Shown here piece after piece: positions 4,496-38,162 of a stretch of 64,000 nucleotides of DNA. Below the pieces are notes generated by a model. That model saw only the letters and a list, made by a program, of their open reading frames with translations. It did not search any database and had not been told where the DNA came from. Source of the DNA: Rhodococcus pseudokoreensis. Its GTDB lineage: Bacteria > Actinomycetota > Actinomycetes > Mycobacteriales > Mycobacteriaceae. Where the stretch lies: contig NZ_CP070619.1 of the NCBI RefSeq assembly GCF_017068395.1, forward strand, positions 1,860,001 to 1,924,000. Direction: 5' to 3'. Position numbers and translations under genes: made by a program. How positions within the stretch are numbered: the first letter of the stretch is position 1; every line of letters begins with the position of its first letter.

Positions 4496-4499
<4 letters not shown>
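3849..4499 (-). CDS. grpE: Nucleotide exchange factor GrpE
   Basis: A 216-residue protein with an acidic, disordered N-terminus, a long dimerisation helix ([20 protein letters not shown]), and the C-terminal beta-wing region containing the family signature ([10 protein letters not shown] followed by [20 protein letters not shown]). GrpE releases ADP from DnaK. The GTG start at 4499 overlaps the dnaK stop by 4 nt (GTGA), so translation is coupled. The Ala/Pro-rich ends are variable in this family. Confidence 0.95.
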
Positions 4500-6340
<1,841 letters not shown>

Positions 6341-6380
6341 AGTGTTCCTCACTTCCGTTTTGCAGTCCTGTGGGCAGGTT

Positions 6381-22814: not shown

Positions 22815-24311
22815 CTACAGGCGGACGGTGTTCAGTTCCTCCAGAACACCTTCCGCGCTGCGGGCCGCGACGGTGCAGGCCCGCGCCGTGAACTGGTCGA
22901 GCAACGGGTGCCGTGCGCGTTCACGCCACTTCCGCACCGCGGCGAGCGCCCGCATCCGCTGCAACTCCACGGAGTCGTCGCCGTCGGTGCCCAGTCGTTC
23001 CGGGATCTGGATTCCGAAACCGCCGATCAGGCGTTGCAGTTCGGCGACGTCGTCGGCGGGCAGCCCCACCTCGGTGGACCGCAGCCGCCCGAGCAGTCGC
23101 AGTTCCTGGAAGCCGTGCACGTCGGACAGCAGTCGTTCGGCCGACATCAGGATCTCGCCCGCCCCCGGCACCGGATGCGCCGTGAGGACCCGCTTGAGTG
23201 CGACGAGCGCCGAGTGGGTCTTCAACTGATCGGCCCGCTGCCCGAACTGGATGTCGATCACCTGACGCAGTTCGTCGAGCCCGCTGCGTTCCACCAGTTC
23301 GGCCGCCAGCGTCGGCGAGTCCTTGGTGCCCAGCCGGATCAGGGTGACGGCCATCCGGATCCCGAAGAGCCCGAAGCGGTCTGCCAGCTGGGCCCGCATC
23401 CGGGCGTCCACGGGAAGCGGGCTGTCCTCCCGTGCGAACCGGTCGGCCGAGAGCATCGCCAGGTTCAGATCGTCCACCGGCACCTCGGCGAGATGCTGGA
23501 ACGCCGTGAACTCGGCCTGGCGCATCGTGCGGGCCCCGAGCGCCAGCAGACCCGCGACGGGGACGACGGCCTGGCACAGCCCGGTGCGCTCGAGTTCGCC
23601 GGCAAACCGGGACGCCACCTCCTTCGCCGACATCATGGCGTCCAGGCGTCCGGCACCCACCTCGTCGGCCCGGGACACGACCCCGACCACACCGAGCGGT
23701 CCCGATTCGTCGCCGACGTGGTCGCCGATCTGACCGAGGAACTGGACGTCGGTCGCGTTGAGCGTGCGCAGCAGGTAGACCACGGCGTCGGCGCCGGACG
23801 CCTCGTTGTCCGGGGTGAGCATCTCGAGGGTGCGGGCCGAGACGTCCCGGGACAGCGAGGACGTGCCCGGGGTGTCGATGATCGTCGTGTGCGCCAGCGC
23901 GGACGACGGCCACTCCACGTCGAGGCGGTCCACCTGGTCGGCGGTGAGGTGACCGAGGTCGAATGTGAGATGTCCGTCGCGGCGCAGCACCGGGACGTTC
24001 GCCGAACGCTGGCCGCCGGTGCCCGGGTCGGGCTGGTACCAGGCCGTCACGGTGGGCGTCGACCCGCTCCGGTACCAGGTGACGACGCGGGTGCACTCGG
24101 TGGCGTCGGTGGGGGCGATGTCCTGCCCCACCAGGGAATTGAGCAGCGTGGACTTGCCGGCCTTCAGCGAACCCGCCAGCGCCACCCGCAGCGGTTGTTC
24201 GAGTCGCCGGGCGCATTCGGTCAGCTGATCCCGGATCTCGGGGCGGCCCGCGTACAACTGCCGGGCGGACGCGATGAGTGCCCGGGCCTCGTGGAGCGGA
24301 GCGGCGGTCAT
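22815..24311 (-). CDS. iniC: Dynamin-like GTPase, IniC type
   Basis: A 498-residue dynamin-superfamily protein resembling mycobacterial IniC. P-loop GSLKAGKST (about residues 47-55), the G2-like Thr in DATECTRVVTW, G3 DTPG (146-149) and a G4-like SRADEV are all present. The rest is helical, with a DNA-free, membrane-free profile. In mycobacteria, iniBAC is induced by cell-wall inhibitors and IniA is a membrane-remodelling dynamin-like protein; IniC is thought to act with it. The ATG at 24311 overlaps the iniA stop (ATGA), so the two are translationally coupled. Last gene of iniB-iniA-iniC. Confidence 0.9.
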   Translation of the reverse strand: MTAAPLHEARALIASARQLYAGRPEIRDQLTECARRLEQPLRVALAGSLKAGKSTLLNSLVGQDIAPTDATECTRVVTWYRSGSTPTVTAWYQPDPGTGGQRSANVPVLRRDGHLTFDLGHLTADQVDRLDVEWPSSALAHTTIIDTPGTSSLSRDVSARTLEMLTPDNEASGADAVVYLLRTLNATDVQFLGQIGDHVGDESGPLGVVGVVSRADEVGAGRLDAMMSAKEVASRFAGELERTGLCQAVVPVAGLLALGARTMRQAEFTAFQHLAEVPVDDLNLAMLSADRFAREDSPLPVDARMRAQLADRFGLFGIRMAVTLIRLGTKDSPTLAAELVERSGLDELRQVIDIQFGQRADQLKTHSALVALKRVLTAHPVPGAGEILMSAERLLSDVHGFQELRLLGRLRSTEVGLPADDVAELQRLIGGFGIQIPERLGTDGDDSVELQRMRALAAVRKWRERARHPLLDQFTARACTVAARSAEGVLEELNTVRL

Positions 24312-26152
24312 GCCGTGACCGCTCCCGCGTCGCCTGCGACGAGTTGCGCGGCCTGCTGCTTCAGCTCGGAGGCGACGTGCAGATCCTTCTCGAGTTGCGC
24401 GATGCGGCGGGTCCGCTCGGTGGACTCGAGGTTCGCCGCCTCCTGCGCGGCCCGCAGCGACTCGTTGATCGACCGCAGCGCCTGCTCGGCGATCGCGGTG
24501 AAATGATCACGCAGCAACCGCTGGATCGACCGGAGCCGATCCTTCGACTCCTTGCCCACCTGGAAGCTGGCGTCGTCCGCGAACCGGCGGATCGCGGTCT
24601 TCGCCTCGGCCCGCCGCTTCAGGATCCGGCTCTCCCGGTCTTCCCGGTACGCCTTGGTCCCCAGCAGGACTCCGGCGCCGATCGAGATCGGATTGACCAG
24701 GGCCATCCCCATCATGGTGGTGATCAGACCGAACATGAGGACGCCACCGTAGGACCCGCGCATCCCGACGAGGACCTTCTGCGTGATCCCGATGCGCCCC
24801 GCCTCGAGGTCGGCGAGCGAGGCCACGGGTTCGAGGACCCCGTCCACGTCCGCGACGTCCAGGTGCGGCAACTCGACGGAACCCGTCTCCGCGAAGTGCT
24901 GCGCCACCACCTCGGCCAGCCACAGCGCCCGGTCGTGGGCCCACACGAAGTTGTCGCCGATCGCGGTGGCGAACTCCTGCTCGAGCCACTGCCCCAGCGC
25001 GTCCCAGTCCTTGCCGGGATCGCCCTCGTCGACGGTCTCCTCCGCCTCCCGGGTGACGCGGCGCAACCGGTCCCGCAGGTCGTGGTCGATGTCCGCGGCC
25101 AGGTCGGCGATGCCGTCGCCGAGCGTCTGCTGCCACAGCGACGTCTTCTTGTGCAGTTCCTCCGCGGCGGCCTTCGCCTTCTGCAGTTCCGCGACCGCTG
25201 CGACGCCCTTCGCCGGATCACGCAGGGCGGCAAGCTCACTGCCGATCCCCAGGGTCAGATGCTCAGCAGCCGACGACACGTCCAGCGACACGGCCCGGCG
25301 GGTGTTCGCCTCCGCACGCGCCACCACCCGGTCGCGCAGAAATGCGTACAGCTCGACGAAACCGGATTCGGTGTTGAGTTCCTCGTCCTGCAGTCGCAGC
25401 GCATGCGAACGCAACACCGAGGAGATCGGGATCAGGGGAACATCCAGACCGGCGCGTGCGAGGTGCCCGCGATCGGCCTCGACGATCTCGCGCCAGTGCG
25501 GGTACAGGTCGGTCTTGCTGATCAGGCAGGCCACCGACGGGCACAGGCTCGTGACCTGGCGGATGAAACCGAGTTCCGGCTCGGTGAATTCCTGGCTGGC
25601 GTCGGAGAGGACGAACACGGCGTCCGACGCCGGAATCAGACCGAGCGTGCTCGCGGCGTGCGGGTTGCCCGCGCCGCCGACCCCGGGGGTGTCGACCAGG
25701 ACCAGCCCGTCGGCGAGCAGCGGGCTCGGGACGTTGACCTCCACCCGCAGCACCTCCCGGCCTCCGGCTCGGGGCGAGGCCGGGGTGATGCCGTTCAGCT
25801 CGTCGAGCGGCAGCGGCACCCGGATCGGGTCGGCCCCCGGATCGGCGAGGACCAGTTCCGCCGACGCGGTCTCCGCGTTCTGGACGACGGTGGGGATCGC
25901 CGTGGTCTCGTCGTCGCCCACCGAGCACACGGTGAGATTGAGAAGGGAATTCACGAACTGGCTCTTCCCCTGCTTGAGCGGCCCGACCACCACGATCCGC
26001 ATCCGCGGGTCCTGCACCCGGCTGCGGGCCGAATCGAGGCGCTGCGCCAGGTCGCCGCGACCGAACCGCTTCGCCACGTCCAGGGCCTGCTCGAGCAGTG
26101 CCGTCATCGACTGCGACCGGGCTGGACTCTTCTCGGCGGCTGCACTGTCCAT
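24308..26152 (-). CDS. iniA: Dynamin-like GTPase IniA
   Basis: A 614-residue dynamin-like GTPase closely resembling mycobacterial IniA. P-loop GPLKQGKSQ (about 57-65), G2 Thr in DDETTAIPTVV, G3 DTPGVGG (154-157) and G4 SKTD (212-215, followed by LYPHWREI) are complete. A helical stalk follows, then a paired hydrophobic segment (about 470-500) with the IniA signature MRGSYGGV and NPISIGAGVLLG, then a C-terminal coiled coil. It should bind and reshape the inner membrane. The ATG at 26152 is chosen for length and similarity; its ribosome binding site is weak. iniB lies upstream across a 170-nt spacer holding a hairpin. Confidence 0.92.
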   Translation of the reverse strand: MDSAAAEKSPARSQSMTALLEQALDVAKRFGRGDLAQRLDSARSRVQDPRMRIVVVGPLKQGKSQFVNSLLNLTVCSVGDDETTAIPTVVQNAETASAELVLADPGADPIRVPLPLDELNGITPASPRAGGREVLRVEVNVPSPLLADGLVLVDTPGVGGAGNPHAASTLGLIPASDAVFVLSDASQEFTEPELGFIRQVTSLCPSVACLISKTDLYPHWREIVEADRGHLARAGLDVPLIPISSVLRSHALRLQDEELNTESGFVELYAFLRDRVVARAEANTRRAVSLDVSSAAEHLTLGIGSELAALRDPAKGVAAVAELQKAKAAAEELHKKTSLWQQTLGDGIADLAADIDHDLRDRLRRVTREAEETVDEGDPGKDWDALGQWLEQEFATAIGDNFVWAHDRALWLAEVVAQHFAETGSVELPHLDVADVDGVLEPVASLADLEAGRIGITQKVLVGMRGSYGGVLMFGLITTMMGMALVNPISIGAGVLLGTKAYREDRESRILKRRAEAKTAIRRFADDASFQVGKESKDRLRSIQRLLRDHFTAIAEQALRSINESLRAAQEAANLESTERTRRIAQLEKDLHVASELKQQAAQLVAGDAGAVTA

Positions 26153-26227
26153 GAGCTTCGTTGACCCGCAATTCTTCCGACCTCGTGCGGGCACCTGCTC
26201 GGTGCCCCGACACCCGACTGTGTGAAA

Positions 26228-26258
26228 CAGCCCCGCACGCATAACGCGTCCGGGGCTG
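26228..26258 (-). terminator. Hairpin between iniB and iniA (possible attenuator)
   Basis: Read on the minus strand, CAGCCCCG and CGGGGCTG flank a 15-nt loop that contains a further ACGC/GCGT pairing, followed by TTTCAC. It could terminate part of the iniB transcripts and so lower iniA-iniC expression relative to iniB. Confidence 0.5.
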
Positions 26259-26322
26259 ATTTCGTTACATCGTACGGCGGTCCCGGCCGCCCCGTCTGGG
26301 GGATGCCGGAACCGCCGTTTCA

Positions 26323-29300
26323 TCACGGCTCGAGGTGATCGACCACGCCCGTGACGTCGTGCGAGAGGTCCACCGAGGAGTCGGTGTCGCCGAACAGCGA
26401 ACCGTCGGTGTCTGCGTGCAGGCCCGAGTCGGCGCCGAACGCGTTGTCCGCGTCGATCGACGACCAGGTGTCGGCGCCGGTGTCGACGGCACCGCCCAGG
26501 GTGGATCCCAGGCCGCCGGCGATCGAACCGGTGGTGTCGGCGACTGCGCCGCCGACCGCTCCGAGGTCCGCGGAACCGTCCGCGCCGGCGTCCGCACCGG
26601 CATCCGCGCCGGCAGATCCGCCACCCGCGACCGAGCCACCGGCGGACGCTGCGCCGTCGAGGGCACCGCCCACTGCGGCTCCGCCGTCGACCGCTCCACC
26701 GACGGCACCGTCGAGGGCGCCGCCGACCGAGGTGCCGAGGGATCCGAGACCGCCCACGCCACCGGACAGTCCGGCGCCGAGGTCGGCGGCCGCGTCGGTG
26801 GTGGCGTCCAGGCCACCGGTAAGACCGGCGGTGGCGTCGACGGCGCTGTCCACGCTGCCTTCGAGTCCGCCTGCCACGTCGCCGCCGATTCCGGCAGCGG
26901 CGTCCACGGTGCCGCCCAGACTTCCGCCGACGTTCGCGGCCGTGTCCAGAGCGCCACCGACCGTGCCGCCCAGGTTGGCGGCCGTATCCAGGGCGCCACC
27001 GACCGTGCCGCCCAGGTTGGCGGCCGTGTCCAGGGCACCGCCGAGGTTCGCGTCCAGGCTCGCACCGGCGTCGGCGACCGCGCCGACCGAGGCGCCTGCC
27101 TCGCCGACCGCGTCCACGGCACCGCCGACGCTGCCGGTCAGTGCCGAGCCGAGGCCCGCACCGGTTTCGAAGATTCCGCCGAGACCACCGGTGAGGCCGC
27201 TGGTCAGACCGGCGCCCAGGCCACCGGCCGTGTCCAGTCCGCCGACCAGGTTGGTTCCGAGGCTGCCGCCCAGGTCCGCTCCGGCGTCGGCAACCGCGCC
27301 GACACCCGCCGCGACACCGGCACCGATGCCGGCCGCAGCGTCCGCGCCGCCCGCCACACCGCCGCCGACGGCGCCGCCCACGTTGCCCGTGACGTCAGTG
27401 CCGACGTCGAGCAGCCCGCCCAGCGCGCCGTCGATGCCGCTGGTCAGGCCACCCGCGAGACCGGTGCCCGCGTCGAGCGCACCGTCGAGGGCGCCGCCCA
27501 CGCCGGCTGCGGCGTCGAGTCCGAGGTCGGCGTCCAGAGCGGAGTCGAGATCGAGGCCGCCACCGGCCTCCAGTGCCGTTTCCAGTGCGGAACCGAGGGT
27601 CGCGCTGAGGTCGCCGTCCGCGCCGAGGACGCCGCCGAGAGCGGTGCCCAGCGTGCTGCCGATGCTTCCCTCCGCGCCGAGGACGCTGTCGAGGTCGAGG
27701 GCGCCGCCGGTCTCCAGCGCACCGCCGAGCACTCCGCCGAGGGCCGCGCCGAGATCGGCGCCCGCAGCGCCACCGGCACCGAACGCGCCGCCGAGCAGAC
27801 CACCCAGATCGGTCGCCCCGCCGAGGTCGACTCCGCCGTCCGCGCCGAGCACCGCGTCGAGCGCCGCACCCAGGCCTGCGGTGGCGTCACCGTCGACTCC
27901 GAGCACTCCACCCAGCGCGCTGCTGATCGTGGTTCCCAGATCGGCACCGGTGTCGAGGACACCGCCCAGCCCGAGGCCGCTCTCCAGCGCGCCGCCCAGG
28001 ACCGTTCCCAGGTTCGCGCCTGCGTCGCCGCCCAGACCGAGGGCACCGCTCAGCGCCGTGGTCAGTTCCGACGTCAGTTCGCCGCCGAGGCCGAGGTCGC
28101 CGCCCAGACCGAGGTCCAGTCCGCCGTCCAGCAGACCGCCGAGGTCGATGCCCGTCACGCCGCCGGCGCCGAGTGCGGCGTCGAGGGTGCTGCCCAGTTG
28201 CGTGGCCAGGCCACCGTCCAGCCCGAGGGCGCCGCCGAGGACCGTGCCGAGTGCGGCGTCCAGTCCCAGACCGCTGTCGAGTGCACCGGACAGTGCGCCG
28301 CCGAGGCCGCCGTCCAGGTCGAGGGCGCCGCCGAGCAGACCGCCCAGGGCTCCACCCAGGTCACCACTGACGTCGCCGCCGGCGCCGAGGACGCCGCCGA
28401 GGATGCCGCTCAGCGCGCCACCGAGGCCGCCGTCGGCTCCGAGCACGGCACCGAGGTCGAGTCCGCCGCCGGCACCGAGCACGGCGTCCAGCGCGGTGCC
28501 GAGACCGGCCGTGAGGTCGCCGCCGACTCCGAGTTCGCCGCCGAGCAGACCGCTCAGGGCACCGCCGAGGCTGCCGCCCGCACCGAGGATCGCGTCGAGG
28601 TCCAGTCCGCCGCCCAGGTCCGCGATCGAACCGAGCGTCGCGCCGAGCGCGCCGCCGAGGTCTGCGCCGAGGTCGCCGCCCGCACCGAGGACACCGCCGA
28701 GCGCGCCACCGAGGACCCCGCTGAGGTCGGTGCCGAGGACTCCGCCGAGCGAACCGGCGACGTCGCCGAGCAGGTCACCGCCGAGCAGGCCGTCGAGGGT
28801 CGCGCCCAGTCCGCCGCCGGCGCCGATTGCCGCGTCGAGGGCACCGCCCAGCGAGCCACCGAGACCGGCGTCGACACCGAGCACGCTGCCGAGGGTCGTT
28901 CCGAGCACGCCACCGAGGTCGAGGCCGGCACCGAGTCCGGCGAGGATGTCACCGTCCACGCTGCCACCGAGGTCGACGACGCTTCCGAGGGCGGCACCGA
29001 GAGCCGCACCCAGCTCGGCGCCGAGGTCGCCGCCGATGGACAGTGCCGGCGCGAGGATCCCGGTGAGACCACCTGCCACGTCGACCACCGGCAGGGCCGT
29101 GATCGCCGCGGTGAGGGTGGTGCCGAGCTGGGCCGTCAGGTCGGTGCCCAGACCGAGCACTCCGCCGAGGGCTCCGCTGATCACGGCGCCGAGGTCGAGT
29201 GCGCTGCCGAGGTCGAGGCCACCGGTGAGGGAGAGTGCCGCGTCAAGAGCCGCACCCAGCGCGGCACCGAGCTGCGCACCGATCTCGCCGCCGATCTCCA

Positions 29301-29730
29301 GTGCGGCACCGAGCGCGGCGCTCAGACCGGCCGCGAGTTCCGCGGCGAAGTCGAAGTCGCCGCCCAGGCCGGCGCCCAGACCGAGGCCTGCGCCGGCACC
29401 GATACCGACCGCACCGCCGAGGCCGCCACCGAGACCGAGGCCGGCGCCCAGGCCGCCACCGAGTCCGCCGCCGACACCCGCGCCGAGACCGCCTGCGACG
29501 TCACCGACGACGCCGGCACCGGCGTTGACGATCGCCGCCAGATCGGCTCCACTGCCCGCGAACAGACCCGACTCCGCGACCAGGGGAGCGACGGAGACGA
29601 TGTCCGCGTGGCTCACACCCTGCAGGCCGGCAGCGCACAGCGCGTCGGTCGGGTTGGCGCAGTAGGCCGCCGCAGCCTGCTCGTCGCGAAGAAGGCCGAG
29701 GATGAAGTCGAGGACGGCGTTGGTAGCCAT
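26323..29730 (-). CDS. iniB: IniB-like giant Gly/Ala/Leu/Asp repeat protein
   Basis: A 1135-residue protein. The first 50 residues form an IniB-like helical head (MATNAVLDFILGLLRDEQ, then CANPTDALCAAGLQGVS and DIVSVAPLV). The rest is degenerate repetition of units such as GGVLGAGGDLGADLGGALG, with hydrophobic residues at regular spacing and almost no Lys or aromatics. The C-terminus becomes acidic (DSSVDLSHDVTG). It is about twice as long as I recall mycobacterial IniB being. ATG at 29730 with AGGAGAG upstream; the frame beyond is untranslated leader. There is no signal peptide. Role unknown; low-complexity structure suggests a fibre, gel-like or surface-active element. It is first in iniB-iniA-iniC. 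Confidence 0.85.
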   Translation of the reverse strand: MATNAVLDFILGLLRDEQAAAAYCANPTDALCAAGLQGVSHADIVSVAPLVAESGLFAGSGADLAAIVNAGAGVVGDVAGGLGAGVGGGLGGGLGAGLGLGGGLGGAVGIGAGAGLGLGAGLGGDFDFAAELAAGLSAALGAALEIGGEIGAQLGAALGAALDAALSLTGGLDLGSALDLGAVISGALGGVLGLGTDLTAQLGTTLTAAITALPVVDVAGGLTGILAPALSIGGDLGAELGAALGAALGSVVDLGGSVDGDILAGLGAGLDLGGVLGTTLGSVLGVDAGLGGSLGGALDAAIGAGGGLGATLDGLLGGDLLGDVAGSLGGVLGTDLSGVLGGALGGVLGAGGDLGADLGGALGATLGSIADLGGGLDLDAILGAGGSLGGALSGLLGGELGVGGDLTAGLGTALDAVLGAGGGLDLGAVLGADGGLGGALSGILGGVLGAGGDVSGDLGGALGGLLGGALDLDGGLGGALSGALDSGLGLDAALGTVLGGALGLDGGLATQLGSTLDAALGAGGVTGIDLGGLLDGGLDLGLGGDLGLGGELTSELTTALSGALGLGGDAGANLGTVLGGALESGLGLGGVLDTGADLGTTISSALGGVLGVDGDATAGLGAALDAVLGADGGVDLGGATDLGGLLGGAFGAGGAAGADLGAALGGVLGGALETGGALDLDSVLGAEGSIGSTLGTALGGVLGADGDLSATLGSALETALEAGGGLDLDSALDADLGLDAAAGVGGALDGALDAGTGLAGGLTSGIDGALGGLLDVGTDVTGNVGGAVGGGVAGGADAAAGIGAGVAAGVGAVADAGADLGGSLGTNLVGGLDTAGGLGAGLTSGLTGGLGGIFETGAGLGSALTGSVGGAVDAVGEAGASVGAVADAGASLDANLGGALDTAANLGGTVGGALDTAANLGGTVGGALDTAANVGGSLGGTVDAAAGIGGDVAGGLEGSVDSAVDATAGLTGGLDATTDAAADLGAGLSGGVGGLGSLGTSVGGALDGAVGGAVDGGAAVGGALDGAASAGGSVAGGGSAGADAGADAGADGSADLGAVGGAVADTTGSIAGGLGSTLGGAVDTGADTWSSIDADNAFGADSGLHADTDGSLFGDTDSSVDLSHDVTGVVDHLEP
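26935..27060. repeat. 42-bp tandem repeat inside iniB
   Basis: Three copies starting at 26935, 26977 and 27019, the last diverging at its end. They encode the 14-residue unit GGALDTAANLGGTV. They are the most homogeneous part of the repetitive iniB gene and imply recent expansion by slippage or unequal crossing-over. Confidence 0.7.
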
Positions 29731-30088
29731 GGCAATCTCTCCTGTGGTCGAGGTTCGGGGAGTTCGGGTGGCCACCACAACTGCTGTGACGGCGAGTGAA
29801 ATACACGTTATGGATCGGCGGCCCCCTTCCCAACGGGGCGGCGCCCCCTACTCACCGGCCCCGGTATCGGGGATCTCCCATCGGGGGTCGGGCCCCCGCC
29901 GTTAGGGGGTAGGGGGGCATTAGGGGATCGGCCCCGTAACTGCCGTCGACCTGCGCATCGGCGTAACGAAACGGCCGCCGCACGCGACAATTCGAGTGAC
30001 CACGACGGCCCCGGCCGTCACATACGACGGCGGCACCGTCCGTCTGACACAGGCGGCGTGACGCCCGCCCGGACCACAGGAGTGGAAC
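29731..30088. promoter_or_regulatory. Divergent control region iniB / hsp70-like
   Basis: A 358-bp gap between divergent genes. It is rich in G-tracts (GGGGG runs at about 29880-29935) and GC dyads (around 29890-29910). It carries the element shared with the second ini cluster at 29791-29814. No gene was found in it. The LuxR-type regulator encoded at 31923 is a candidate to act here (inference). Confidence 0.5.
29791..29814 (-). promoter_or_regulatory. Element shared by both ini clusters (copy 1)
   Basis: On the minus strand: TCCATAACGT, 6 nt, CACTCGCC. The same pattern with one change (CAGTCGCC) occurs at 47112-47135, upstream of the first gene of the second ini cluster and in the same orientation. 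It lies about 60-85 nt before the iniB ATG. It may be a core promoter or an activator site. Confidence 0.5.
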
Positions 30089-31915
30089 ATGGCTGCAGCG
30101 CTCGGCATCGGTGTCGGATCGGTCAACACGGTGGCCGCCGTCGACACGGACGGGGCGAGCGTGACGGATGCCGCCGACCTCACCGTCCTGTCCCGCGCAA
30201 GCGTTCTGCACCTCTCCCCCGACCGCGCACCCCTCCTCGGCGGCGACGGCGGCGAACCGGACGCCGTGACGGTGTCCGACTTCGCGAACCGCGTGGGCGA
30301 CCCGGTCGGGATCCTCACCGACGACGGCTCGACCTACTCCGGCGAAGACCTCGTCGCCACCGCCGTGAGCTGCATCGTGCACGAGGCGGCATCCGGCAGG
30401 CACGGTCTCCCGGCCACCGTCGTCGCCCACCCGACCGTCTGGCCGCCGTACACCGTCGGGGTCCTCGCCGACGCGCTCGAGGAGGCCGGCGTCGCGGACG
30501 CCACCCTCGTGTCGGAGGCGCAGGCGGTGATGACGTGGCTCGAACGGACCCGCGGCACCCTCGGCGACGCGCTGACCGTCATCTACGACCTCGGCGGCAC
30601 CTCACTCGACATCACCCTGTTCCGTTCGGACGCACACGGCACGGAGACCGGCGTCCTCGGCAAGCCGGTGCGGTCCGAGGACTTCGGCGGCGCCCACTTC
30701 GACCACGCCACCATGCAGTACGTCCTCGGCAACGTCGCCGAGGAGTTCGGCGACATCGACCCGTTCGCCCCCGACACCGTCGCCGCGCTGACCCGCCTGC
30801 GGACCCGGTGCACCGCGGCGAAGGAGGCACTGTCCTCCGACACCGAGGCCACCATCGGCATCGAACTGCCCGGCATCTCCACCGATGTGCGCCTCGTCCG
30901 CTCGGAACTCGAAGACCTCATCCGCGAACCCCTGCAGGACTCGGTGACCCTGGTCCGCGAGAGCATCCACGCCGCCGGTCTCGAATCCAGCGACGTCACC
31001 CAGGTGGTGCTCACCGGTGGCAGCGCCGCCATCCCGCTCGTCGCCGAACTCCTGTCCGCGGAGCTGCGGGTTCCCGTCGTCGCGGCCGAACGTCCGGGCC
31101 ACACCGCCGCCCTGGGTGCGGCGCTGCTCGCCGCCGACCGGGATGCGGGACGCGCCGCCGCCCCGACCGTCGCGCGGATGCCGGTCGTCGTTCCCACCGC
31201 CGCGCCCGCGTCGGCAGCGCCCGCCGCCGCCCCGGCTGTCGAGTCGGACGCCGACACCGTCGTCCTCCCCGCCCGGCCGCCCGCACCGAGACCCGTCGAC
31301 CCCGCCCCCACCGGGATGTCGCGCAAGAAGAAGGCCGGGATCATCTCCGCGTCCGTCGCCGCCATCGCCCTGCTCGCCGCGGGCGGGCTGTCGCTCGGCA
31401 CGGCCTTCGACGTCGCACCGGCGTCCAGTTCGGGTTCGACCACCTCGCAGTCGTCGGGCACGTCGGCGGGTGCGGCCGCCACGTCCGGTGTTCCGGCGGA
31501 GGCCGCCGCGACGGGCGCCGTCGCACCCGGCACCGAGGCCGCGGGTGTCGCCGCCGCGACCGGGGTTCCCGGCACCGCGGCCGGCGTCGCGACTCCGGTC
31601 GCCGCACCCGGCACCGTCCCACCCGGCACCGTCGCACCTGCCGCGGCCCCACCGGTTGCCGCGGCGCCCGGCACCGCCCCGGCCCCCGCCGCCGCGGCGC
31701 CTGCACCGGCACCGGCACCCGCTGCTCCCGCACCGGCACCTGCGCCCGCTCCGGCACCGAGCGTTCCGTCCGACGGCGGCGCCGCGATCGCCAACACCAT
31801 CGTCGGTGGTGCCGGCGCGGTCGGCGACACGGTCACCGGGGTGGGCGACACGGTCGGCGGCGTCGTCGGCGGAGTCACCGGACTGGTGCCCGGCGTCCTC
31901 GGCAACGGCGGATAG
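30089..31915 (+). CDS. Membrane-anchored Hsp70-like protein with Pro/Ala-rich outer tail
   Basis: A 608-residue protein in three parts. Residues about 3-355 are an Hsp70/actin-type ATPase domain: degenerate phosphate-1 (LGIGVGSVNTVAAVDT), phosphate-2 VIYDLGGTSLDITL (about 164-177) and adenosine motif VVLTGGSAAIPLV (about 307-319). A Pro/Ala linker leads to one transmembrane helix (about 416-436), preceded by RKKK, which predicts a cytoplasmic N-terminus. The outer part is about 165 residues, mostly Ala/Pro/Gly/Val. There is no Hsp70 substrate-binding domain. GGAG precedes the ATG. It is divergent from iniB and co-directional with the LuxR-type gene 7 nt downstream. Role unknown; it may sense or couple envelope state. 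Confidence 0.85.
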   Translation: MAAALGIGVGSVNTVAAVDTDGASVTDAADLTVLSRASVLHLSPDRAPLLGGDGGEPDAVTVSDFANRVGDPVGILTDDGSTYSGEDLVATAVSCIVHEAASGRHGLPATVVAHPTVWPPYTVGVLADALEEAGVADATLVSEAQAVMTWLERTRGTLGDALTVIYDLGGTSLDITLFRSDAHGTETGVLGKPVRSEDFGGAHFDHATMQYVLGNVAEEFGDIDPFAPDTVAALTRLRTRCTAAKEALSSDTEATIGIELPGISTDVRLVRSELEDLIREPLQDSVTLVRESIHAAGLESSDVTQVVLTGGSAAIPLVAELLSAELRVPVVAAERPGHTAALGAALLAADRDAGRAAAPTVARMPVVVPTAAPASAAPAAAPAVESDADTVVLPARPPAPRPVDPAPTGMSRKKKAGIISASVAAIALLAAGGLSLGTAFDVAPASSSGSTTSQSSGTSAGAAATSGVPAEAAATGAVAPGTEAAGVAAATGVPGTAAGVATPVAAPGTVPPGTVAPAAAPPVAAAPGTAPAPAAAAPAPAPAPAAPAPAPAPAPAPSVPSDGGAAIANTIVGGAGAVGDTVTGVGDTVGGVVGGVTGLVPGVLGNGG

Positions 31916-31922
31916 AGCGCCG

Positions 31923-33878
31923 GTGTCCTCGCTGCCCTCACCGCTTCCTCCCACCGAACTCGCGGACCTCGACGGCCCGCAACTCTCCGCTCTCGCACTG
32001 GTTCTGCTCGGCAGCGACCTCGACGAGACCGTGGTCGCCCGGGTACTCGATGTCGAACCCGACCGCGCCCGCGCCGCAGTCGACGCGCTCCGTTCGGACG
32101 GCTGGGTCGACGAACGGGACACGCTGGTTCTCGATCGCACGCATCTCACGACGACGCTCGGCGAGAACCGCCTGCACACGCTGGCCCGCCGCCTGCTCGC
32201 CCATCACGTCGACGGCGGAACGCTCACGCTGCCCGTCGCCCGCGCGGTGGCCGCGACCGGCACACCCAGCGACGAGCTGAGCCAATTCCTTTGCGCCCAG
32301 GCCGAACTCGCCGAACCGGCCGTCGCCGTCGCGTTGTACGCCGAAGCCGGACGGGTCGGCAGGCTCCGCGACGGCGCCGTCGTCGCGCATGCCGAGGCGA
32401 GCGCCCTGAACGGTGACCTCGACACCGCCGTCGGCCTGGCCGATTCCGTCCTCGAACGATCCGCGACCGTCGACGGTCCGGAACTCGCTGCGGCCGTGCG
32501 CATTTCGGCAGCGGGCGCCGCGTTCTGCGGCATGATCGACCGCAGCGCCGAACTGTATGCCTGGCTCGGTGCGGACCGGGCGGGCGCCGACGCCTCCGTC
32601 GCCGCCTCCGTCCTCGTGGTCGCGGGCCGGCTCGACGACGCCGAAGCCGTCCTCGCGACGAGCGCTGGCGCACCCCCCACCGCCGCCACCGCCGGCGCGG
32701 CCCTCGTCGCGACCGGACTCGTGCAGTCGGTGTCCGCGTCCGCGAATGCGGCACTGAACTCACTGACCCGCGCCCTGTCGCTGCCCGGCCGCGCGTCGCG
32801 GCCGCGGATGCTGCCCGACTCCCCCGCCGCGATCACCGCCCTCGCCGCACTCCACTGCGGCGAACTCGCCCACGCGGACGCCGTCCTCATCCGCGCCCGG
32901 GACGCTGAGCGCCCCGGCAGTGTCACCGCGAACCGGCACCAACTGCTCACCGCGTGGACGTCGATGGTCCGCGGCGACCTCACGTCGGCGCAGTCCCGGC
33001 TCGACGGTCTCGACGCCGCGACGATGCACCAGCGCGATCTGCTGTTCGTCCACGGCCTGCGGGTTGGGCTGGCGCGGCGCACCGGCGACAACGCGGCGCT
33101 GCTCCAGGCGTGGGCGGGCGCGCAGGGGGTGCTCGCCGAATACTCGGTGGACCTGCTGAGCCTGCTGCCGCTCGGCGAACTGTGGCTCACCGCGATCCGC
33201 GTCGGCGAACCCGGCCGGATCACCCACCTCGTCGAGGACGCCCGGTCGTTGCTGCGGACCCTCGGCGAACCGGCGATGTGGGGATCGGCCCTGCACTGGT
33301 ACGGCGTGCAGGCCTCGATCCTCGCCGAATGCCCCGCCGATCTGATGCCGCACGCCCGCGCACTCGGTGAGGCCGCCAAGGTCAGCCCGTACGCGTCCGG
33401 GCTCGCCACCGCCGGTCGCGCCTGGCTGCGCGTGCTGCAGGGCGACATCGACGCCGCCTCCGTCGAGGACGCCGCCCGCACCCTCGACCGGATCGGCCTG
33501 CCGTGGGACGGCGCGCGCCTCGCCGGTGAGGCCGCGCTGCGCGCCTCCGACACCAGGGTGGCGACCACCCTGCTGCAGGTCGCGCGGGCCCTGCGCCAGC
33601 CGACGTCCGCCGGCAACGGCGCCGACTCCGCGGTCGTGCCGAGCCCGAACACCCCGGGGTCGCTCACCGACCGCGAGGCGGAGGTCGCCGACCTGCTCGT
33701 CCAGGGGCTGACGTACCGGGAGATCGGGTCGCGCCTCTACATCTCCGCGAAGACGATCGAGCATCACGTCGCCCGGATCCGGCGGCGACTGGGCGCCGGG
33801 TCGCGCTCGGAACTGTTGTCGATGCTGCGTGCGATGGGCCACGGGTCTGCGGCTTCGCCACCCGTGAGTACTTCTTAA
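31923..33878 (+). CDS. Large LuxR-type transcriptional regulator (candidate ini regulator)
   Basis: A 651-residue regulator. The N-terminal 60 residues look like a small helical domain (SALALVLLGSDLDETVVARV). The middle is TPR-like helical repeats with no clear Walker motifs. The C-terminus (about 579-640) is a LuxR helix-turn-helix (LTDREAEVADLLVQGLTYRE, then SAKTIEHHVARIRRRLG). The GTG at 31923 lies 7 nt after the Hsp70-like gene stop, so they form an operon. Position next to iniBAC suggests an IniR-like role; in mycobacteria IniR (Rv0339c family) activates iniBAC. That assignment is inference. Its stop codon lies inside a 50-bp palindrome. Confidence 0.8.
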   Translation: MSSLPSPLPPTELADLDGPQLSALALVLLGSDLDETVVARVLDVEPDRARAAVDALRSDGWVDERDTLVLDRTHLTTTLGENRLHTLARRLLAHHVDGGTLTLPVARAVAATGTPSDELSQFLCAQAELAEPAVAVALYAEAGRVGRLRDGAVVAHAEASALNGDLDTAVGLADSVLERSATVDGPELAAAVRISAAGAAFCGMIDRSAELYAWLGADRAGADASVAASVLVVAGRLDDAEAVLATSAGAPPTAATAGAALVATGLVQSVSASANAALNSLTRALSLPGRASRPRMLPDSPAAITALAALHCGELAHADAVLIRARDAERPGSVTANRHQLLTAWTSMVRGDLTSAQSRLDGLDAATMHQRDLLFVHGLRVGLARRTGDNAALLQAWAGAQGVLAEYSVDLLSLLPLGELWLTAIRVGEPGRITHLVEDARSLLRTLGEPAMWGSALHWYGVQASILAECPADLMPHARALGEAAKVSPYASGLATAGRAWLRVLQGDIDAASVEDAARTLDRIGLPWDGARLAGEAALRASDTRVATTLLQVARALRQPTSAGNGADSAVVPSPNTPGSLTDREAEVADLLVQGLTYREIGSRLYISAKTIEHHVARIRRRLGAGSRSELLSMLRAMGHGSAASPPVSTS

Positions 33879-33908
33879 CCGCCGGCGGTTAACAAGTACT
33901 CACGGGTG
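33859..33908. terminator. 50-bp near-perfect palindrome (terminator or operator)
   Basis: Outer arms of 15 nt (CACCCGTGAGTACTT and complement) enclose a perfect 18-bp palindrome (TTAACCGCC/GGCGGTTAA). Only one pair of positions (C opposite C) is mismatched. It includes the TAA stop of the LuxR-type gene. As RNA it would be a very stable hairpin; as DNA it has nested dyads typical of protein binding sites. Confidence 0.6.
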
Positions 33909-33998
33909 CCGGATGTAACCATTCGACCGCGGGAGGCGACACACTGTGCACATGGTGCGATGATGCACCCCTCTGAACCGTGCCAGTAAGGATCTTCC

Positions 33999-35162
33999 AT
34001 GACCACCGGAGTCGGACTCACCGTCGGCGATTCGGTTTCCACGGCGGTGGTGACCGCTTCCGGAACCGACGTGAGGACGATCGAACACCCGTCCGTCCTG
34101 TTCACGGCCCCAGACGGCACCGTGCAGCTCGGCGACCCCGGCACGGAGTCGACGGGCGCCGTCCGCGACTTCCTCGCACGCGTGGGCGAGCCCGCGGGCA
34201 TCGAGTACGCGGGTTCCCTGACCCGCGCCGAGGACCTCGTCGCGACGGCGATGTTCTGCCTGTTCCGGGAGGCGTCGGACGGACTGTCCGGGACGGTGAA
34301 GGTCACCGCGACCCATCCGTCGGACTGGGCGCCGGAGATCGTCACCAAGCTGCGTGAATCGCTCGATTACATGGGTCTGGGCGAGGCGACGCTCATCCCG
34401 GAGTCGGTGGCGCTCGCCGCGTCGCCCGAGTCCCCGGCCCACGGCGCGGCGCTGCTGGCGGCCGGGTTGGCGTTGACCGACGAGGACACGAGCGCCGACA
34501 CGGAGTCGATTCCCGTCGTCGAGGCCCCGCTGCACACCGCGTATTCCGCCGTGACGGCGGTGCCGGCGGCCGCTGCTGCTGCATCCGCGGACGCGTTTCC
34601 GTCGGCCGAGACCGAGGCGTCCACTCCGGCGAGCACGCCGACCGCACCCGCCAAGCGCCCCGACCGTCGGCCGCTGATCATCGCCGGCGTCGCCGCGGCC
34701 GCACTGGTGGTGGCCGGTGGGGCGGTCGCGTTCGCGCTCACCGGCAACGGCAGCACCGCGGTCCCGTCGATCCAGGACGCCCAGACCGCGGCGGTGACGA
34801 CGACGACCACGCGACCCACACCGGTCGCGCCTGCGGTGTTCCCGACGGCGAGCACGCAGGAGGTGGCCGTGACGACGGAGGTGGAGGCCCCGATCCCGGT
34901 CGCTCCCCCGCCCGCGCCGGTCGTGACGACATCCGTGTTCCCGCCCCCGCCCCCGCCGACGACGACGACCACGACGACGACGACGCCGGTGATCACCCTT
35001 CCCTCGATCACCACGGTCCCGCAGACCACCACGACGACGACTGCCGCAACGACCACGACGACTTCGTCGGAGACGACCACCACCACGACGACGCAACCGC
35101 TGGCCGCGACCACCACCACGACGACTCCGGTGCGGCCCGCGCTGAAAACGCCAGGTCAGTGA
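33999..35162 (+). CDS. Truncated Hsp70-like membrane protein with Pro/Thr-rich tail
   Basis: A 387-residue relative of the Hsp70-like protein at 30089. Residues 1-140 match lobe I of the ATPase fold (GVGLTVGDSVSTAVVT, DFLARVGEPAGI, SLTRAEDLVATAM, LGEATLIPES). The sequence then jumps to the last helix of the domain (SPAHGAALLAAG), so the phosphate-2 strand, lobe II and adenosine motif are absent and ATP hydrolysis is unlikely. A transmembrane helix (about 225-247, after KRPDRRP) and an outer Pro/Thr-rich tail with poly-Thr runs follow. AAGGA precedes the ATG. Possibly a regulatory or scaffold partner of the full-length paralogues. Confidence 0.8.
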   Translation: MTTGVGLTVGDSVSTAVVTASGTDVRTIEHPSVLFTAPDGTVQLGDPGTESTGAVRDFLARVGEPAGIEYAGSLTRAEDLVATAMFCLFREASDGLSGTVKVTATHPSDWAPEIVTKLRESLDYMGLGEATLIPESVALAASPESPAHGAALLAAGLALTDEDTSADTESIPVVEAPLHTAYSAVTAVPAAAAAASADAFPSAETEASTPASTPTAPAKRPDRRPLIIAGVAAAALVVAGGAVAFALTGNGSTAVPSIQDAQTAAVTTTTTRPTPVAPAVFPTASTQEVAVTTEVEAPIPVAPPPAPVVTTSVFPPPPPPTTTTTTTTTPVITLPSITTVPQTTTTTTAATTTTTSSETTTTTTTQPLAATTTTTTPVRPALKTPGQ

Positions 35163-35274: not shown

Positions 35275-36594
35275 ATGCGTAACGTGCTGGCGCACCGCGC
35301 CGCTGTTGTAGGCGCCTCGGCAATGCTTCTTCTCTTTCCGTTTTCCACTGCCGCCCAGGCCGACCCTGTTACGCAGCCCGACACCACGCAGCTGAGCGCC
35401 GACAAGTTGCCGGCCGAACTCGTCGAGGCCATTACCCGCGACCTGAAGATCAGCCCGCAGGAATACCTCGACCGCGCCGCGAAGGCACAGGAGCTGGGTA
35501 GTTACGCCGCGGACTTCCGGGAGGAGCATCCGGACGACTTCGCCGGGGCGTGGATCGGCCTCGACGGCAACCCCGTCGTCGCGGTCACCACGAACGAGGC
35601 CGCCGACGCCGCAGCCAAGGCCGGGTACGACACCCGCATTGCGCCGGTGTCCGCGAACGGCCTGGAGAAGACCCTCTCCGACGTGAACGGCTGGATCGCG
35701 GGACTGCCGAAGGACGTGGCTTCCCAGGTCAACTCCGCGTCGATCGACGTTCTCGACAACCGCGTCGTCATCGATGTCGTCAACAGCCCCGTCGGCCAGG
35801 CGCTGAACCTGCCGACGCTGCTCGCCAACGTCAAGGTGATGCTGAGCCCCGGCGGCGGCGGTCCGGTGGAGCGGGGTCCCCTCGCCGGCGACACGTACAT
35901 CACCACCGCGGGTGAACTGCCGAAGACGCCGATCTCGGAGATCTCCGTCTGCTCGCTCGGCTTCAACGCCGTCGACGACAGCGGCCAGGCCGTCAACATC
36001 AGCGCCGGGCACTGCAACCCCGTCGAGGGCCAGCCGTCGCCGGTGTTCCTCCCCAACCATCAGAACGTCGACGACAGCCAGCAGATCGGCGCGTTCTCGA
36101 AGTCGTCGGTGGGTAACCCGGCCGACAAGCTCGACTACTCGGTGATCAAGCTGAACGACGCGGGCGTCAAGGCCGGTCTGGACCGTCCCGCGGTGCGCGG
36201 CGCGAACGGCACCACCCTGGAGATCACCGGCACCGCCCGTCCCGTCGTCGGCGCCCCGATCTGCAAGTCGGGTCAGACGTCGTCGTTCACGTGTGGTGTG
36301 GTCGCCGCCGATCACGTCGAGACGCAGTTGTTCGTGGCCGACGGTTCGAGCCGCGTGATCAACGGTTTCGCGGGCACCGCCTGCACTCTCGCGGGTGACA
36401 GCGGCGGCGCCATCGTCACCGGCACCCTCGCGCTGGGCATCACCAGTGGTTCCAACGCCGCCGGCGCCCCCAACTGCACGGAGGCGAACCTGGTGCTGGC
36501 ACCGGAGGGCGGCACGGCCAGCCTCGGCATCCCGGTCGCGGACATCGTGGACACGGTCGGATCCGGGATGCACGTGCGCACCATCTCCGACTAG
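35275..36594 (+). CDS. Secreted S1-family serine protease with N-terminal prodomain
   Basis: A 439-residue exported protease. The signal peptide ends near AQADP (about residue 29). A prodomain of about 170 residues precedes a chymotrypsin-fold catalytic domain. The triad is visible: His in ISAGHC (about 246), Asp in LDYSVIKL (about 287) and Ser in AGDSGGA (about 376). Cys pairs flank these (CSLGFN/GHC and CKSG/TCG), as in streptogrisin/alpha-lytic proteases. AGAAGGGA precedes the ATG. It is one of two paralogues in tandem, each with its own terminator. Likely autoprocessed outside the cell; substrate unknown. Confidence 0.9.
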   Translation: MRNVLAHRAAVVGASAMLLLFPFSTAAQADPVTQPDTTQLSADKLPAELVEAITRDLKISPQEYLDRAAKAQELGSYAADFREEHPDDFAGAWIGLDGNPVVAVTTNEAADAAAKAGYDTRIAPVSANGLEKTLSDVNGWIAGLPKDVASQVNSASIDVLDNRVVIDVVNSPVGQALNLPTLLANVKVMLSPGGGGPVERGPLAGDTYITTAGELPKTPISEISVCSLGFNAVDDSGQAVNISAGHCNPVEGQPSPVFLPNHQNVDDSQQIGAFSKSSVGNPADKLDYSVIKLNDAGVKAGLDRPAVRGANGTTLEITGTARPVVGAPICKSGQTSSFTCGVVAADHVETQLFVADGSSRVINGFAGTACTLAGDSGGAIVTGTLALGITSGSNAAGAPNCTEANLVLAPEGGTASLGIPVADIVDTVGSGMHVRTISD

Positions 36595-36653: not shown

Positions 36654-36851
36654 TGTGTGTACGGCAGGGTGCCGCGACGGTCCGGTGTCCGCTTTGTCCA
36701 GCTGCGTCGCCCGCCGAGAGTGTTACAGGTGGGAATAGACGGGGCGAACCCATATAGTCGACTCCGACTGTGTACGGCCTTACCCGTCAGGGGGGTCGTA
36801 TTCGCGTGCGCCCGCGAGGCAACTGCGAACAAACAACATAGAAAGGCCCCC

Positions 36852-38162
36852 ATGCGAAGCTCCATCGCACGTCGTGCCGCCGTGTTCGGCTCCGCCGCGC
36901 TGCTGCTCCTCGGTCCGGTCACCGCCTCTGCTCAGGCCGATCCGGTCGAGCCGGGAGTGTCCGGCCAGGCCGCCAAGCTTCCCGCGGAACTGATCGACGC
37001 AATTTCGCGTGATCTGTCGCTGAGCCCGGATCAGTACCTGGAGCACGCCGAGCTGGGCCAGAAGCTGGCCGAGTTCGCGAAGATCGCCCGCACCCAGTTC
37101 CCGGACGCGTTCGCCGGAACGTGGCTCGACAACGCAGGCACCCCGATCGTGGGGCTCGCCGACGGCGCCGACAAGGAGGCCGCGGTCGCCGCGGCCGACA
37201 AGGCCGGCTTCCAGGTGAAGGATGTGGCACAGAGCGAGAGCAGCCTGCAGGCGCAGGTGAAATCGCTCGACGGTTGGCTGGACACCCAACCGCCCGCGGT
37301 CGCCGATCTCGTTCGCGGCGTCGCCATCGACATCGTCAACAACGATCTCGTGCTCCGCGCCGACAACGTGGGTGGGTTGCAGCTTCCGGACTTCCTGAAG
37401 GGCGCCCGCGTCGTGCAGTCGCCTGCGACGGCCGCTCCGCTGCCCTCCACCGACCTCACCCCCATCGCCGAACCGCTGCCCGCCGACGCCCTGCTGGGCG
37501 GCGACGCGTACGGCTCGCTCGGCGGCGGAGTGGGGCTGCGCTGCTCGCTCGGGTTCAACGGCACCGACGGGTCGGGCCGGCCCGTGAACATCACGGCAGG
37601 GCACTGCGACCCCAACCGGGGCGCTGCAGGCACCTCGGAGGCCTCGGAGGCATTCTCCCTGGTCCAGGGTGGCACCGGTCCGCGGATCGGCACGTTCGCC
37701 AAGACCAGCCTGGACATCCACGACTACTCGATCATCCGGGCCGACGACGACGCCGCCCGACGGTTCGAGAACAACGGCGTCCGGGTGCCCGGTGCGGCGC
37801 CGGTCGCGATCACCGGAACCGCCGACCCCGTCGTCGGCGCCCCGGTGTGCAAGTCGGGTCTGACGACCGGCTTCACCTGCGGTCGTGTCACGTCCGTCGC
37901 GCAGACCGTCGCGGTCGGTGAGCGCACGCTGGCCGACAGCTTCTCGACGAGCATGTGTGCCCTGCAGGGCGACAGCGGCGGCACCATCGTGACCGGCACG
38001 CTGGCCCTCGGCATCTCGAGCGCCTCCAACGTCGGGCAGTACCCGATCTGCCAGGTCGCGGACGTCGTCACGTTCGTCCTCGGCGAGAGCCCCGAGTTGT
38101 TCGCGACGCCGATCAACGAGGTGCTGGCGGAGAACCCGGGTCTGCGCGTGCGCACCTCGTAA
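36852..38162 (+). CDS. Secreted S1-family serine protease, paralogue 2
   Basis: A 436-residue paralogue of the preceding protease. The architecture is the same: signal peptide (cleavage near AQADP), prodomain starting with the shared motif KLPAELIDAISRDLSLSPDQY, and a chymotrypsin-like domain with His in ITAGHC (about 251), Asp in HDYSIIRAD (about 291) and Ser in QGDSGGT (about 375). The ATG at 36852 follows AAAGG; the frame extends to 36657 but crosses a promoter-like TATAGT at about 36751. The two genes probably arose by tandem duplication and have diverged mainly in the prodomain and loops. Confidence 0.9.
   Translation: MRSSIARRAAVFGSAALLLLGPVTASAQADPVEPGVSGQAAKLPAELIDAISRDLSLSPDQYLEHAELGQKLAEFAKIARTQFPDAFAGTWLDNAGTPIVGLADGADKEAAVAAADKAGFQVKDVAQSESSLQAQVKSLDGWLDTQPPAVADLVRGVAIDIVNNDLVLRADNVGGLQLPDFLKGARVVQSPATAAPLPSTDLTPIAEPLPADALLGGDAYGSLGGGVGLRCSLGFNGTDGSGRPVNITAGHCDPNRGAAGTSEASEAFSLVQGGTGPRIGTFAKTSLDIHDYSIIRADDDAARRFENNGVRVPGAAPVAITGTADPVVGAPVCKSGLTTGFTCGRVTSVAQTVAVGERTLADSFSTSMCALQGDSGGTIVTGTLALGISSASNVGQYPICQVADVVTFVLGESPELFATPINEVLAENPGLRVRTS

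Follow-up and report, generated by a model that had tools for sequence, protein, structure and literature searches.

Organization of the ini locus

The window, a 64,000-nucleotide stretch of the 9.87 Mb Rhodococcus pseudokoreensis genome, carries an iniBAC dynamin operon that faces, across a divergent promoter region, an operon encoding the Hsp70-like protein HspA and the LuxR-type regulator IniR. Leftward, on the minus strand, run iniB (26323..29730), iniA (24308..26152) and iniC (22815..24311). The iniB product matches the NCBIfam IniB_NTERM model (73.2 bits) and continues into a long Gly/Ala/Leu low-complexity body. IniA and IniC are dynamin-like GTPases with intact G1 loops, GPLKQGKS in IniA (PF00350, 51.7 bits) and GSLKAGKS in IniC (PF00350, 45 bits), and IniA matches the solved IniA structure 6j72 with an E value of 3.7e-187. 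The operon thus has the composition of iniBAC, an IniB N-terminal domain followed by the IniA and IniC dynamins on one strand.

Rightward, on the plus strand, lie hspA (30089..31915, 608 residues), iniR (31923..33878, 651 residues), hspB (33999..35162) and two S1-type protease genes. The spacer between iniB and hspA comprises 358 bases (29731..30088). The closest named relatives of the window IniR are from Rhodococcus (98% to an R. wratislaviensis cluster and 96% to R. koreensis). The dnaK gene proper is located at 4496-6352. The original prediction placed iniB-iniA-iniC opposite an operon of an Hsp70-like and a large LuxR-type gene, followed by a second Hsp70-like gene, and all of these elements are present. 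Two of its descriptions require amendment: the regulator has the LuxR end, but the first ~185 positions of the IniR model are missing from it, and the second Hsp70-like protein, HspB, exists, but as a remnant from which the core of the nucleotide-binding domain is deleted.

Conservation of the hspA-iniR pair

Searches recovered IniR in 21 of 28 genomes of the same genus, in 73 of 141 genomes of the family and in 76 of 108 genomes of g29, a genus that is very likely Mycobacterium. The neighbourhoods compared number 129: the window, 20 further loci of the same genus, 68 from the rest of the family and 40 additional g29 loci hand-picked from the 76 matches with preference for long contigs, so that 45 of the 76 g29 matches were inspected. 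HspA was recognized with a profile built from Rhodococcus-rich relatives, which a strongly divergent HspA could escape.

In 117 of the 129 loci hspA is the gene immediately before iniR, an arrangement far removed from what chance would give; seven lack it there and five are cut by contig ends. The 117 include L141 and L146, which were counted as adjacent despite overlapping reading frames (gaps of -556 and -3). The same-strand gap between hspA and the start of the IniR match has a median of 42 bp, and the pair spans genera with and without the IniR P-loop. The divergent arrangement is also widespread: among 120 loci with more than 6 kb of upstream sequence, 115 have a divergent IniA, 113 have HspA and 109 have both. 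In genus g24 the hspA-iniR pair is kept in all three loci with iniBAC absent from the fetched region; IniA is found 14-18 kb away. Across the 141 family genomes IniR and IniA co-occur in 73, and IniR is never found alone. IniA matches without IniR occur in five genomes, all of genus g23, four of which have matches that are 39-41% identical and may be of the IniA2 type described below.

Beyond the family, 18 of 121 genomes searched in the order carry IniR (E 1e-60), at 19 loci. There, hspA precedes iniR in 16 loci, with gaps of 33-164 bases, and the identical divergent layout is seen in 15 of the 19. In L182 HspA precedes IniR and the dynamins follow it, and neither arrangement occurs in L166 (at a contig edge), L172 and L181. 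The linkage between the Hsp70-like genes, the regulator and the dynamins proposed originally is therefore conserved in related genomes, by the hspA-iniR pair (117/129), by hspA with divergent iniA (109/120) and by the divergent layout elsewhere in the order (15/19).

The seven loci without an upstream HspA comprise six from g29 and L122, which has the order IniR-IniA-IniC-Hsp70-like on one strand, with the Hsp70-like gene ~5 kb from IniR. In four of the six g29 loci (L098, L158, L160 and L161) a gene for an Hsp70-like protein with a membrane helix (51-219 bits) is found on the far side of iniC, so that in these genomes HspA may have been relocated rather than lost. The earlier statement that mycobacterial iniBAC lacks Hsp70-like partners holds for these six loci, which form one clade, and is contradicted by the other 39 of the 45 g29 loci, in which iniR follows hspA. 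Boot et al. 2017 (PMC5760070) also mention that iniR has a dnaK-like neighbour in M. smegmatis.

HspA combines an Hsp70 nucleotide-binding domain with a predicted membrane helix

HspA matches PF00012 over residues 107-349 (78.8 bits), and its predicted structure adopts the Hsp70 nucleotide-binding fold (residues 1-355; 30089..31153). A single predicted membrane helix (residues 412-431; 31322..31381), with the basic sequence SRKKK just before it, is followed by an Ala/Pro/Gly-rich low-complexity tail of ~170 residues (31382..31912) that is predicted to be disordered and to lie outside. The Pfam HSP70 match stops at profile position 373 of 599. HspA thus differs from Hsp70/DnaK in the absence of the substrate-binding domain and of the D8 and K70 equivalents, and in the presence of a membrane helix and an outer tail. 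D8 and K70 (DnaK numbering) are catalytically important Hsp70 residues; the window HspA has G8 and A66 at these positions.

The nucleotide motifs are near-invariant among the 117 adjacent HspA proteins. The D194 equivalent is kept in 115, and the two adenosine glycines in 117 and 116. Since the D8 and K70 equivalents are gone, hydrolysis is doubtful even though the nucleotide-binding motifs are retained, and the description of these proteins as ATPase sensors is not supported. HspA would more likely act as a slow or non-hydrolysing switch set by ATP/ADP occupancy than as a chaperone engine. In HspA of other families, inspection by eye found the D8 aspartate kept in 14 of 16.

A predicted helix is present in 114 of the 117 proteins, nine of which have a second one. 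Basic residues are more numerous before the helix than after it in all 114, which predicts a cytoplasmic location for the nucleotide domain. HspA is accordingly predicted to combine an Hsp70 fold inside the cell with one membrane helix. The tail is variable in sequence but rather constant in length, with a median of 170 residues (quartiles 143-179, range 84-341). In four wider relatives folded domains occupy the position of the outer tail: Peripla_BP_6 in P0221 (97 bits), SGL in P0237 (43.8), FGE in P0215 (48.6) and Septum_form in P0212 (37). A linker resembling RPPV-x-[IL]-TP precedes the membrane helix or the C-terminus in HspA of families f14 and f15, and most HspA of other families have such a linker; it is not conserved in the family of the window, where 'RPP' occurs in 34 of 114 linkers. 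In several Rhodococcus-like genera the tail ends in a Gly/Val-rich segment (GVGxxVGGVVGG) that recalls the low-complexity body of IniB, and a meeting point of the two outside the membrane is possible.

IniR has repeatedly lost its P-loop

The top NCBIfam match of the window LuxR protein is IniR (NF038181; 475.4 bits, model positions 186-824 of 827). The score is below the equivalog cut-off of 750 bits because the front part is missing. The C-terminal LuxR/GerE helix-turn-helix is recognized by PF00196 (53.2 bits) and by 1fse (E 1.2e-8). Judged from its best NCBIfam match over the middle and LuxR end and from its synteny with iniBAC, the protein is a truncated IniR orthologue. Alignment indicates that Walker A and B, present in full-length relatives, are absent from the window IniR and several relatives. 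Like the MalT-type (STAND/LAL) LuxR regulators, it is a large multidomain protein with a C-terminal LuxR helix-turn-helix; unlike them, it is without the defining P-loop NTPase domain.

The short form is common to several species: the cluster P0001 has 86 members, and the Rhodococcus loci L009-L012 have a short IniR of this kind downstream of hspA. An annotation or sequencing artefact was rejected on these grounds. A contig scan with one protein as query returned six loci, among which the Kribbella locus matches query residues 518-646 only.

The Walker A motif could be classified in 128 loci, the cut locus L052 being excluded; 88 of them retain it and 40 have lost it. L094 was classed as intact since its ATAGGGKT fits [AG]x4GK[ST]. 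HspA is adjacent in 39 of the 40 loci that have lost the P-loop, the remaining one being L122, and each P-loop-less locus examined has an Hsp70-like gene in its neighbourhood. Among the 88 intact loci, 78 have an adjacent HspA, six do not and four are at contig edges. The P-loop was removed by deletion in the clade of the window, most of g6, g12, g26 and g2. It decayed in other Rhodococcus. The lysine is changed to arginine in g9, L097 and L122 and to threonine in three g19 loci. In the genus of the window, all 20 loci with sequence for the N-terminal part have a deleted or degenerate P-loop; in L013 the contig end removes the IniR N-terminus from view. On an IniR tree of 99 loci, built on the C-terminal 600 residues, the trait changes nine times, eight times without the long-branched L122 and six times without L122 and g6, a genus that occupies two places on the tree; these are counts of change, as the tree cannot separate loss from gain. 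The tree omits 29 of the 39 HspA-bearing g29 loci (crowding) as well as L052.

The divergent promoter region contains conserved TAGGGG boxes

The promoter set consists of 95 iniB-hspA intergenic regions from 17 genera; among the 117 loci with an adjacent HspA, these are the ones in which the start of a facing iniB could be recognised. The box [AT]TAGGGG[AG]T appears repeatedly in these regions, on the strand of hspA. TAGGGG occurs 213 times on that strand and 38 times on the other, versus ~9 expected from first-order Markov resampling, an excess that is partly circular because the box was discovered and counted on the identical regions. At least two TAGGGG are present in 85 of the 95 regions and none in L103 and L123; the commonest spacings are 18 and 15 bases. 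A pair 18-23 bases apart is found in 65 of 95 regions versus 0.02 expected. An independent check is provided by the loci outside the family, where 14 of 16 have a TAGGGG no more than 500 bases upstream of hspA, versus 2.65 expected.

In the window the boxes stand in tandem on the plus strand (29903..29926), starting at 29903, 29910 and 29921. The two WTAGGGGR sites of the window are both inside the iniB-hspA gap. The exact pair TAGGGGN{9,12}TAGGGG has one site in the whole 9.87 Mb genome, at this gap, versus five for the reversed control. Among the 141 family genomes the exact pair is at the ini locus in 35 of the 73 with IniR and absent there in 38; a further 84 matches lie scattered elsewhere, divided between genomes that have IniR (43) and genomes that do not (41). 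The GGGGAT within the boxes resembles the MalT box. We take the TAGGGG boxes to be a candidate IniR operator, and their conservation in the divergent promoter makes shared induction of both arms likely.

These boxes bear on the possibility that the short IniR merely reflects decay, with regulation of the Rhodococcus locus being lost, as the deleted or degenerate P-loop in 20 of 20 loci of the genus might suggest. The spaced pair occurs in 30 of 39 P-loop-less versus 35 of 56 P-loop-intact regions, including 20 of 20 in g1, and in none of the seven loci of g9, g12, g13, g17 and g25. Such persistence of the boxes where the P-loop is lost indicates that the truncated IniR is probably still in use. 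In addition, alignment shows the DNA-binding end of IniR to be conserved, several species have the short form and the loss recurs in other genera, so that decay appears highly improbable.

A putative membrane receptor for IniR

Some elements of this system are known from mycobacteria. According to Boot et al. 2017 (PMC5760070), IniR activates iniBAC, controls it exclusively and responds to trehalose, and its AAA domain comprises residues 24-247 in M. marinum; one sentence there mentions the dnaK-like neighbour of iniR in M. smegmatis. PMC6104191 describes an ATP burst that accompanies iniBAC induction and leaves sensing by IniR through its AAA domain to be determined. In the text of PMC6104087, IniA appears in the introduction and Hsp70 in the references only. 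Beyond that one sentence, searches of the literature for iniBAC or IniR together with Hsp70 or DnaK-like proteins found no description of an IniR-Hsp70 pair, nor of the boxes. As far as these searches go, what is new is the wide distribution of the hspA-iniR pair, the receptor-like architecture of HspA, the repeated loss of the IniR P-loop and the candidate operator boxes. The locus of the window resembles the mycobacterial system of PMC5760070, as far as the latter is described in the available text, in iniB-iniA-iniC, the nearby iniR, the shared MalT-like middle and LuxR end of IniR and the dedicated regulation. It differs in that the P-loop ATPase part of IniR is missing and the gene directly upstream encodes an Hsp70-like protein that has a membrane helix.

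In mycobacteria the iniBAC response is linked to tolerance of isoniazid and ethambutol, and the route by which envelope damage reaches IniR is a gap in the understanding of this drug-tolerance response that HspA, as a sensor, would fill. The Rhodococcus locus is a natural experiment in this respect, with a P-loop-less IniR, a conserved promoter region and a neighbour that has both a nucleotide domain and a membrane helix. Starting from the observed gene order, domain content, missing P-loop, conserved boxes and conserved pairing of hspA with iniR, we consider it somewhat probable, and the most parsimonious interpretation, that HspA is a membrane receptor that switches on the P-loop-less IniR, which would in turn drive both promoter arms via the TAGGGG boxes. 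This is favoured by the hspA-iniR pairing within and beyond the family, including the g24 loci without iniBAC nearby, by the predicted topology of HspA, the rather constant tail length, the folded outer domains of the four wider relatives, the persistence of the boxes where the P-loop is lost, the uniqueness of the exact box pair in this genome and the co-occurrence of IniR and IniA. The outer Thr/Pro/Ala/Gly-rich tail of HspA would report wall damage, the inner nucleotide domain would then change state and release or activate IniR, and IniR would bind the tandem boxes, inducing the iniBAC dynamins and its own operon. Where IniR keeps its P-loop, HspA and IniR would each supply a nucleotide switch; of these two proteins, HspA alone could do so in Rhodococcus.

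Several observations weigh against HspA as the receptor for IniR. Six g29 loci have IniR without an adjacent HspA, which is thus dispensable there. Adjacency of HspA is not significantly associated with P-loop loss (39/117 vs 0/6, Fisher p 0.18; 0.43 with L122 counted as HspA-less), the HspA-less sample being six related genomes. The active sites of HspA are no better kept where the P-loop is lost (independent pairs, median p 0.5-1, leaning in the opposite direction), and in the P-loop-less locus L113 HspA is also without the nucleotide-binding aspartate. For these reasons the recurrent P-loop loss does not prove that IniR depends on HspA. The DnaK D8 equivalent is kept in one of 117 HspA and the K70 equivalent in none. 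Outside the family, 7 of 16 IniR-linked HspA have no predicted membrane helix, so a membrane receptor cannot be the sole role of HspA; the rest have mostly a short outer part. Finally, the second module of the window pairs an Hsp70-like gene with dynamins and has no IniR, and mirror-tree partial correlations with HspA do not single out IniR (0.38 for IniR, 0.36 for IniA, 0.35 for IniC; 70 loci, each with the complete set of four proteins, 8 of them from g29).

The last two points fit a direct partnership with the dynamins, in which the nucleotide domain of HspA would bind IniA/IniC or IniB at the inner face of the membrane and assemble or disassemble them, the promoter being shared for co-expression only. 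The further Hsp70-like gene beyond iniC in several g29 loci agrees with such a partnership. The gene order argues against it: in most of the 117 loci hspA and iniR share a strand, with hspA immediately preceding iniR and transcribed divergently from the dynamins, and the three g24 loci keep hspA-iniR without adjacent dynamins. A direct partnership is considered unlikely. The coupling of sensors to dynamins proposed in the original prediction is borne out as a conserved genetic linkage; direct contact is not favoured, and we think that HspA would be linked to the dynamins through transcription by IniR.

HspA might instead be an output of the regulator, an envelope-spanning structural or anchoring protein that is co-induced with iniBAC by an IniR sensing trehalose through its MalT-like domain. 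The trehalose response reported in PMC5760070, the position of the boxes between both transcription units and the six g29 loci that manage without an adjacent HspA are all compatible with this role. An anchor, however, needs no cytosolic Hsp70-type domain with near-invariant nucleotide motifs, and the seven outside-family HspA without a predicted helix still directly precede IniR; HspA as an output is judged quite improbable.

The reading of HspA as a receptor for IniR has a broader form, which is offered as a tentative suggestion: HspA may represent a new class of transmembrane receptor, in which an Hsp70-type nucleotide domain forms the cytosolic output through which a wall-sensing membrane protein controls a LuxR regulator. 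At least six lineages may have discarded the ATP switch of the regulator because the Hsp70 domain of the receptor took over in trans. If so, the relatives with periplasmic-binding or propeller outer domains would point to a general receptor architecture.

Actinobacterial Hsp70 proteins without the substrate-binding part also occur beside GTPases in the GTPase-centred conflict systems of PMC7159879. These systems differ in their GAP1-N2 type of GTPase and their GrpE and DnaJ-domain partners; in the text of that paper 'dynamin' is absent and 'LuxR' is confined to the references.

A second dynamin module and other neighbouring genes

A recurrence of the dynamin/Hsp70-like pairing at 45.4-52.1 kb was predicted correctly. 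It consists of hspC (45412..46944, minus strand), which encodes an Hsp70-like protein with a predicted membrane helix (PF00012, 62.7 bits), followed on the plus strand by iniB2 (47168..48820), iniA2 (48908..50653) and iniC2 (50650..52098). The low-complexity IniB2 has no family match and is named from its position only. IniA2 and IniC2 are dynamin-like; the G1 lysine is replaced in IniA2 (GLTDKGVS), and G1 is intact in IniC2. Among the 28 genomes of the genus hspC occurs in nine and iniA2 in eight, the window included, as copies at least 91% identical, and hspC lies within ~2 kb wherever iniA2 is found. With no iniR gene and no exact box pair, the second module is probably regulated separately.

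IniA2 belongs to a widespread subfamily of IniA-like dynamins (P0241-P0360) in which the G1 lysine is mostly Met (GxxxxGMS/T) and is Val in the Rhodococcus copies; GxxxxGK[ST] occurs within the first 150 residues of none of the 110 relatives listed outside the Rhodococcus cluster. Matches to IniA2 were found in 38 of 39 g23 genomes and may include ordinary IniA. The phage-defence Leo dynamins were considered as an alternative and not favoured: the PADLOC matches (LeoA/LeoBC) of the ten window proteins scanned were weak and mostly partial, up to 50.5 bits, as may be expected between dynamin families.

HspB (387 residues) has no Pfam match and scores 102 bits to the HspA-family nucleotide-binding domain profile. 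Reading of its sequence indicates that the core with the phosphate-2 and adenosine motifs is deleted; a membrane helix and a Thr-rich tail are present. Unlike the Rhodococcus remnant, the gene that follows iniR in genus g22 reaches 246-414 bits against the same profile in all six loci (L056-L058, L062-L064).

Downstream of hspB, the first S1-type serine protease (35275..36594, plus strand) is alpha-lytic/streptogrisin-like, with a match to 1hpg (E 2.6e-10), a weak match to an alpha-lytic pro-region and, by eye, a start resembling a signal peptide. The second (36657..38162, plus strand) is a paralog at ~36-38% to the first. In 10 genera, 56 of 59 loci carry a homologue downstream of iniR; none of the 70 loci in the remaining nine genera does. 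It is pure speculation that the proteases might cut the outer tail of HspA.

The lone hspD (61926..63353, minus strand), to the right of the second module, encodes the fourth of the Hsp70-like proteins (PF00012, 43.5 bits), likewise with a predicted membrane helix. It has no dynamin neighbours, and the genome thus has several receptor-like proteins of such a build.

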